A DNA stretch of 43,374 nt from assembly GCA_031255195.1 (NCBI GenBank), contig JAIRSZ010000065.1, positions 1-43,374 on the forward strand. The letters are read 5' to 3'. A program made the translations under genes and the position numbers. Below, piece after piece: positions 35,144 through 37,764 of this stretch. Under the pieces are notes generated by a model. It was given only the letters and a program-made list of their open reading frames with translations. It did no database searches and was not told where the DNA came from. This DNA is from Prevotellaceae bacterium (GTDB lineage: Bacteria > Bacteroidota > Bacteroidia > Bacteroidales > UBA932). Position 1 is the stretch's first letter. Each line of letters begins with the position of its first letter.

Positions 35144-35398
35144 ATCTTTGCGTGGTGTTTGTTTTTTGGTATTTTCTACAAAGATAGCATTAAATCTTTG
35201 TATCGCACACAAGCGTATGAAAATGTCTCGTAAAACTCTACTAAAGTGCGCCATGCAGCCGGCCAAAGCCACAGTTGATGCAGGAAAAAACCGGCAGCTA
35301 AAAGCCTTGTAACCACATATTACAAAATTTTAGCGCGACAACTTGGAGTACATCTTGCCGCAGCTTAGAAAATGCGCCCGGCAGCGCAGTAGTAATAC

Positions 35399-36290: not shown

Positions 36291-37154
36291 TTAGTTGTTT
36301 TTCTTTTTTTTAGCCTTGGCTGCTTCGCGCTTGGCTGCCTCCTTTTCTTTTTTCTTTTGCAGGGCTGCCTTTTCCTTTTCCCGCTTTTCGGCCTCCTTCG
36401 CCTTTACCTTTTCCCTCTCCTGAGCGTGTTTTGTTTTTTCGGCTTCTTTCTTAGCCAAAGCATCTTCCTTCTGCTGCTGCTTTTTCAGCTCGTCTGCCTC
36501 CTTTTGCTTTTGCCTGGCGGCTTCGTCCTCCTCCTTCTTCTTTTGCGACTGCAAGGCTTCGCGATCCTTGGTTTTCTCGGCGCCTTCGATGGCGCTAATT
36601 TCTTTGTCTATGGCTTTGAGGGCTGTCATTGCCTCCTTCAGCGCCTTGTCTGCCAGCTTCAGCTTTTCCGTGCCGCGCATTTCATACTTTTCGGCTTCTT
36701 TCAGCTTTCGCCGAATTTCCGCATCCCTTGCCTGAAGGATTTTCAGCTCGGCGTTGTACTCTTTGCGGATTTCGTTTCTTTTCGTCATTCCCGCCTTGCG
36801 CTCCTGCGGGTCTTCAGATTTGATTTGCTTCTCGATGGCGGGCACATCCACGCCAAACACGCGCTTTTCCAGCTGGTCTTTATCGTCGAACAGCTTGTCC
36901 AGCTCGTTTTTCCCCTCCTGATTCAGGCGAGCGCCCTCTACAAGGAGGCTATCGGCCGCCCTTCTGTCGGCCTCTGCCTTGTCAACGCGCACCTGAGTTG
37001 CGCTGCGCCGCTCAATGAGTTTGGCCAGCTTTGGATTTTTTTCGCCGTCTTCTCCCTGCGCGTAGAGCGCTACAGGCGCGGCGGTCAGCAGGGTTGCGCA
37101 GAGCAAAACTTCTTTGCGCAGCCGCCTGCACAACAAATTCTCCTTTACAATCAT
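36291..37154 (-). CDS. Secreted/periplasmic Lys/Glu/Ala-rich coiled-coil protein
   Basis: Signal peptide 'MIVKENLLCRRLRKEVLLCATLLTAAPVALYAQ' then a highly charged helical body ending AAKREAAKAKKKKNN. Confidence 0.75.
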   Translation of the reverse strand: MIVKENLLCRRLRKEVLLCATLLTAAPVALYAQGEDGEKNPKLAKLIERRSATQVRVDKAEADRRAADSLLVEGARLNQEGKNELDKLFDDKDQLEKRVFGVDVPAIEKQIKSEDPQERKAGMTKRNEIRKEYNAELKILQARDAEIRRKLKEAEKYEMRGTEKLKLADKALKEAMTALKAIDKEISAIEGAEKTKDREALQSQKKKEEDEAARQKQKEADELKKQQQKEDALAKKEAEKTKHAQEREKVKAKEAEKREKEKAALQKKKEKEAAKREAAKAKKKKNN

Positions 37155-37245
37155 TTTCTTTAGCTTAAAACACATAATGTACTGATTACAAATAAAATTA
37201 AACAAATTCACCAAGCGATTTTTCCCTTAACTAAATTACAGGGGG

Positions 37246-37464
37246 GAAGGTGCATTTGCCTTCAATTCGATGAAGGCTTTGTTGCTCAAGCTGTCGGCTT
37301 TACCAACTCCGCCGGAATGAATCGTTCGGCAGTAGAAAAATGCTCCGGCGGTTGCCGCATCCCTGCGGAGGGAGTGCGGCAAAAAAACGGCGACATCTGT
37401 TTCTCATACTGAGCGATAACCTTATTAACGGGGTTGCTTAGAGCAACAGCCTGAAATGCACCCC
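37246..37464 (-). ncRNA. Candidate structured ncRNA / long structured leader
   Basis: Minus RNA: closing stem GGGGUGCAUUU/AAAUGCACCUU; second long-range stem GGCU-GUUGCUC-U-AAGC/GCUU-GAGCAAC-AA-AGCC; hairpins UUGCCGCA..UGCGGCAA and CCGCCGGA..UCCGGCGG; TACCTTTG promoter element (37466-37473) abuts the 5' end. Confidence 0.65.
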
Positions 37465-37764
37465 TCAAAGGTATAAATTTTTGAGAAAAAAAACTAATAA
37501 GATGTATAAAAAAAACATATAAATGCGAATTCACAAGGTGAAATATTTTACCGTCAATGGAATATATACCCCAAATAAATTATGATGGCTGCACAGAGGA
37601 AAAATTAATTTCGTTGCGCATGATTTGCCTGCTTCACAGCATACCTTTTTTCCCGTCGTTGGTAGAACATCTCCGTTTTTTTTGTGGGTAAAAATGCACG
37701 CCGTACATCTCTGCATGATGATAAACCTAATTATGACGATGAACTTACGCACCTTCACAGATAA

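Follow-up and report, generated by a model that had tools for sequence, protein, structure and literature searches.

The window, a 43,374-nucleotide stretch covering positions 1 to 43,374 of contig JAIRSZ010000065.1 from a Prevotellaceae bacterium, contains a minus-strand gene for a Lys/Glu-rich protein next to divergent atpD. The protein matched no Pfam family, and relatives looked for in named genomes were not found. The DNA upstream of both genes had been predicted from its letters to encode a structured noncoding RNA on the minus strand. The parts that we distinguish here are as follows.

37248 to 37463, minus strand: 216-bp element, very probably a decayed, MITE-like, non-autonomous derivative of the ISKra4 family (nhmmer E 7.6e-19; alignment with 17 copies)
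37443 to 37463, minus strand: promoter-proximal terminal inverted repeat (TIR), GGGTGCATTTCAGGCTGTTGC, which aligns to the TIR consensus GGGTGCATTTCAAATTGTCGC
37248 to 37257, plus strand: outer part of the gene-proximal TIR, AGGTGCATTT (sequence and alignment)
37258 to 37285, plus strand: 28-bp insertion dividing the gene-proximal TIR, with hairpin GCCTTCAATTCGATGAAGGC; absent from all other aligned copies
37286 to 37298, plus strand: inner part of the gene-proximal TIR, TCAAGCTGTCGGC (profile alignment)
37466 to 37473, minus strand: TACCTTTG, the -7 box that serves the Lys/Glu-rich gene; it points into the element and is separated from the TIR by 2 bp; present in five of six orthologs
37203 to 37210, minus strand: TGAATTTG, one mismatch from the -7 box, a candidate second promoter that starts 38 bp outside the end of the gene-proximal TIR
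36291 to 37154, minus strand: gene for the Lys/Glu-rich protein, downstream of the element (open reading frame [ORF]; orthologs in the genus)

Elsewhere in the window, a weak TIR-like stretch at 35329 to 35352, TGTACTCCAAGTTGTCGCGCTAAA, scored 4.8 bits, which is within the range of shuffled windows.

Fold of the segment

All of the pairing strings, helices, and hairpins described in the original prediction are present in the sequence where it placed them, and so is the -7 element TACCTTTG at 37466 to 37473 on the minus strand. The minus strand of 37240 to 37470 folds at -90.8 kcal/mol, compared to -65.0 ± 4.4 kcal/mol for shuffled sequences (z = -5.8), and none of 200 shuffles was as stable; long-range complementarity with nested hairpins does exceed chance, as had been claimed. 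The minimum-free-energy fold contains the closing helix and both hairpins, plus most of the second long-range helix. In that second helix, the promoter-proximal TIR pairs in part with the insertion at 37258 to 37285 in the gene-proximal TIR. Since this insertion is specific to the window copy, part of the nesting is peculiar to it. The plus strand of 37240 to 37470 folds nearly as well (z = -5.5), and such near-equal folding of both strands indicates an imperfect palindrome. The true unit of the folded segment is 37248 to 37463, and we infer that it folds because the element is an imperfect palindrome.

Scanning the window against Rfam, at gathering and relaxed thresholds, brought no family to the cut-off. 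The suggestion of a 6S-like RNA failed as well, since the 6S model found nothing across the whole genome. No terminator-like site was found on the minus strand. Compensatory changes in the stems, proposed as a check, proved to be almost nil among dispersed copies, with a covariation term of -0.38 out of -74.0 kcal/mol. At the orthologous spacers examined, the element is absent. A conserved atpD-linked element was considered and rejected, as the atpD upstream DNA of four comparable relatives in the genus contains no such element. These results do not support a conserved structured RNA gene: the segment is missing beside atpD in relatives and is dispersed elsewhere, with TIRs and 8- or 9-bp target duplications.

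Dispersed copies and the parent transposase

We searched with an nhmmer profile of 20 dispersed copies from related genomes, and it matched the window from 37463 to 37286 (61.8 bits, E = 7.6e-19); ten shuffled windows reached at most 6.6 bits with the same profile. The match ends at 37286, and nine leftover model positions fit 37249 to 37257, beyond the 28-bp insertion, which sets the unit at 37248 to 37463. BLAST with the segment found matches in four other genomes of the genus, more than 10 each in G004 and G010. The aligned copies have common ends, GGGTGCATTTCAAATTGTCGC...GCGACAATTTGAAATGCACCC, and a palindromic interior. With up to two mismatches allowed, the TIR pattern occurs 146 times in G010, 118 in G004, 33 in G005, 26 in G001, and 16 in G007; the reversed pattern, used as a control, occurs in none of the five. 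The same pattern is found three times in the window's own genome, where the segment is single copy and, apart from these three TIR relics, other matches are weak and chance-like. At one mismatch or fewer, the pattern is patchy, present in 26 of 150 genomes and 5 of the 26 genera of the family. Exact TIR matches reach records labelled Tannerella, Dysgonamonadaceae, Saprospiraceae, Chitinophagaceae, and Cyclobacteriaceae. Parts of three genomes used here agree with metagenome-assembled genome records that bear the title 'Prevotellaceae bacterium' (G010 with JAISGH, G004 with JAISAC, and G142 with JAIRLF), which to judge by their isolate codes probably come from insect guts. A literature search with the TIR string returned no relevant paper.

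The 56 unique TIR-paired copies range from 69 to 895 bp, nearly all of them from 69 to 459 bp, with a mode of 194 to 197 bp. Exact target duplications flank 15 of these 56 (nine of 8 bp and six of 9 bp). In the controls, none was exact at 5 to 7 or 10 to 11 bp, and mismatched pairs gave about zero. The window copy itself shows no flanking target duplication and has a split gene-proximal TIR, so the case for its insertion is made by homology. The 895-bp TIR pair (L041/L043 on contig C180 of G004; L032/L040 on C224 of G010) has a central ORF with a resemblance, by eye, to transposases of the Y1 type (IS200/RAYT-like); a second element seems to have entered the MITE here. Separately, many half-elements (L021, L026, L027, L048, L062, L067, and L071) break at the central palindrome CATCCCGTAGGG and continue past the break into similar sequence (TGGGGTGTCAA or alike), and this sequence resembles the terminus of a different repeat family that inserts into the palindrome.

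The parent element, L101 (G142:C90:1-1304), is 1304 bp long, and the same TIRs flank ORFs of 69 and 362 amino acids. The 362-amino-acid product matches the NCBIfam ISKra4 transposase model NF033572 (E 1.5e-58; 198.9 bits with a cut-off of 205); this is the downstream ORF alone, 6 bits under the cut-off, and the next best model, ISLre2, scores 108.1 bits. It also matches Pfam UPF0236. L101 starts at a contig end, and direct repeats were measured on the MITE copies. A 1283-bp TIR-to-TIR contig of another bacterium, L267, encodes a transposase that is 58% identical in the same two-ORF -1 arrangement. In G010, by contrast, a single frame holds both transposase parts, so programmed frameshifting, as in the ISMich2 group, is a possibility; L101 also contains a run of ten A. 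In this transposase superfamily, inverted repeats are 18 to 39 bp and direct repeats 8 or 9 bp (PMC3942029). Our family has an ISKra4-type transposase, inverted repeats of about 21 bp, within that range, and direct repeats of 8 or 9 bp, in agreement with the ISKra4-family (p-MULT 4) insertion sequences (IS) of the same study. The two-ORF -1 frame arrangement has been ascribed to the ISMich2 group, for which no promoter targeting was reported (PMC3942029); L101 and L267 recall that group in this arrangement, yet the family targets promoters like the ISKra4 group.

No intact transposase was found in the window's own genome. Both in the window's genus and in other genera, decayed or truncated transposases adjoin this TIR, and L133 (G122), a 253-bp TIR-bounded element that retains a transposase fragment, is a visible step from IS to MITE. 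The window copy itself is short (216 bp), has no transposase gene, and bears the same TIRs as L101; sister genomes hold many dispersed copies (up to 146 TIR matches), and its own genome holds a few relics. The homology to dispersed copies, the TIRs, the target duplications in relatives, and a transposase-bearing element with the same TIRs together indicate that 37248 to 37463 is very probably a decayed, non-autonomous MITE-like element that a transposase of the ISKra4 family (prokaryotic Mutator-like) would have mobilised in trans.

MITEs have been described in this phylum. MITECca01 of Cardinium is likewise a palindromic MITE, of about 240 bp, in a Bacteroidota genome, with TIRs shared with its parent IS; it differs in deriving from another family, IS982, and the available portion of its report does not mention promoter targeting (PMC9769881). 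BrickBuilt of Porphyromonas gingivalis is also intergenic in a Bacteroidota genome, and effects on neighbouring transcription have been suggested; in contrast to our family, it has its own 23-nt minisatellite and outward promoters, and the available portion of that source mentions no ISKra4 link (PMC4596501).

Promoters at the insertion sites

The DNA outside the TIRs contains a promoter signal. TAnnTTTG, the Bacteroidota -7 box, points outward and starts 37 to 43 bp outside the TIR at 70 of 243 unique junctions, with a peak at 39 to 41 bp; windows of equal width further out average 1.5 sites and never exceed 4, and no peak is seen for sites in the opposite orientation. TTTG, resembling a -33 element, peaks 15 to 17 bp outside the TIR. 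The signal is found in three genera (41 of 157 junctions in g1, 15 of 43 in g14, and 12 of 38 in g20), and an ORF of at least 70 amino acids lies within 130 nt after TAnnTTTG at 52 of 69 sites. Among the 56 paired elements, 22 are flanked by a promoter at one end and 1 at both ends. The parent L101 itself stands at about 40-bp spacing from a -7 box. Outside the window's family, the promoter motif was seen in genomes labelled Tannerella or Tannerellaceae, at 3 of 15 junctions and always at 39 bp. In the other lineages sampled, none of 45 junctions has it at the fixed spacing, which means that targeting may not hold phylum-wide or that the promoter motif differs there. Of the three TIR relics in the genome that holds the window, two, the single TIRs L058 (G000:C12) and L065 (G000:C206), each have TAnnTTTG about 40 bp outside and would be traces of past activity in this species.

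ISKra4-group elements are reported to insert 13 to 17 bp from sigma-A promoters (PMC3942029). Our family shares this insertion upstream of promoters, with the -33-like TTTG at 15 to 17 bp from the TIR end; it differs in that its targets are Bacteroidota -33/-7 promoters and most of its copies are MITEs. Promoter-targeted insertion is thus known for some Mutator-like transposases at sigma-A promoters, and in the literature searched (open-licence papers) we found no report of ISKra4-type targeting of Bacteroidota promoters or of such targeting by MITEs.

A fixed distance upstream of promoters is seen for the family (70 of 243 junctions) but not for the window copy when it is measured against the Lys/Glu-rich gene's conserved promoter. 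In the orthologs, TACCTTTG lies 94 (G010), 99 (G004), 77 (G001), 53 (G008), and about 78 nt (G034) ahead of the start codon, and none of these five leaders contains an element; the sixth ortholog, in G005, lacks TACCTTTG. The distance in the window is 311 nt, or 95 nt without the element, and the promoter context TTTTCTCAAAAATTTATACCTTTG is common to the orthologous promoters of G004 (TTTTCTCAAAAACTTTTATACCTTTG) and G001 (TTTTGCTCAAAAATTTGTACCTTTG). Since the promoter is kept in orthologs that have no intervening element, the window element has come to stand between a long-established promoter and the gene that it serves. The copy is therefore atypical, sitting 2 bp downstream of the conserved promoter and not at the family's usual place. 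A separate copy in G001 does end at that usual place, about 40 bp upstream of the same TACCTTTG promoter. Also upstream of the Lys/Glu-rich gene in G001 (L167, contig C15) are repeated CATCCCGTAGGGATGC / CTCGGTAGAAA modules, which are GTAG-containing REP-like palindromes.

We infer that insertion of the window copy separated the -7 box of the Lys/Glu-rich gene from the start codon. Given the usual distance from a -7 box to the start site, transcription would begin at about the end of the element, and the element would then form a folded part, about 210 nt long, of the leader of the Lys/Glu-rich mRNA. Such a leader may alter translation or stability of this mRNA; an effect on the gene is possible as judged from sequence. 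The earlier suggestion of a cis-regulatory leader for the gene starting at 37154 therefore stands as to position, since the gene's own conserved promoter should transcribe the element as leader, while a regulatory function is putative.

Alternative readings and significance

Other explanations of the segment have to be weighed against a decayed MITE. A dedicated structured RNA, 6S-like or other, transcribed from 37466 to 37473, would account for the strong fold and for a good -7 box at the expected place, but it is highly improbable given the mobile-element hallmarks in relatives, the absence from orthologous places, the lack of an Rfam match and of a minus-strand terminator-like site, the folding of both strands, and the negligible covariation. 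The mobile-element reading replaces that of a novel regulatory RNA gene; the structure is real but is not an evolved noncoding RNA, and the element most likely has no independent RNA-gene role. It is also highly improbable that a RAYT (Y1) transposase, and not a DDE transposase, spread the segment as a REP-type palindrome. Single-strand Y1 transposition makes no target duplications of the kind described above, and whole units have them, at 8 or 9 bp, together with TIRs of about 21 bp; moreover, a DDE-type ISKra4 element bears the same TIRs. What such a reading would explain is the interior modules CTCGGTAGAAA / CATCCCGTAGGGATG, which form GTAG-containing palindromes and are also found outside the TIRs. 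In GTAG and short palindromes, these modules do resemble the GTAG-tagged REP palindromes (PMC3733652), from which the whole unit differs by its TIRs and target duplications.

Two further alternatives accept a mobile element. It is unlikely that the element has been domesticated, its hairpins now being a selected cis-regulatory leader, an attenuator or mRNA stabiliser, of the Lys/Glu-rich gene: it does sit between a conserved promoter and its gene, and its fold is still stable despite divergence and the extra hairpin, but a palindrome folds without selection, there is no minus-strand terminator-like site, and the element is not conserved at this place in relatives. Slightly less doubtful, though still improbable, is that its insertion site is after all the usual one for the family: it would lie 38 bp upstream of TGAATTTG, a proximal promoter that now drives the gene, and the distal TACCTTTG would be secondary. 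The spacing of 38 bp from the gene-proximal TIR end is inside the family's range of 38 to 42 bp, and a site with no more than one mismatch would arise by background chance with a probability of 0.034. Against this, the distal context TTTTCTCAAAAATTTATACCTTTG is the one common to G004 and G001, and the leader minus the element (95 nt) matches those of G010 and G004 (94 and 99 nt).

With a decayed MITE as the preferred reading, the segment is a caution: palindromic MITEs adjoining promoters mimic structured RNAs in fold-based searches. For the family as a whole, we tentatively propose, at somewhat less than even confidence, that a Bacteroidota-wide group of ISKra4-type transposons and MITEs finds its targets by the primary-sigma (-33/-7) promoter, probably via bound sigma factor or RNA polymerase. 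By landing upstream at a fixed distance, or just downstream as here, it would recurrently add folded leaders or upstream DNA to many genes. The geometry known from sigma-A promoters recurs at a Bacteroidota promoter that is quite unlike them, which suggests that these elements target the transcription-initiation complex and not a DNA word. The analysis thereby brings to light, in uncultured Bacteroidota, a family of elements that mark promoters by where they insert, with a -7 box at or within a few bases of a fixed distance at over a quarter of the junctions.
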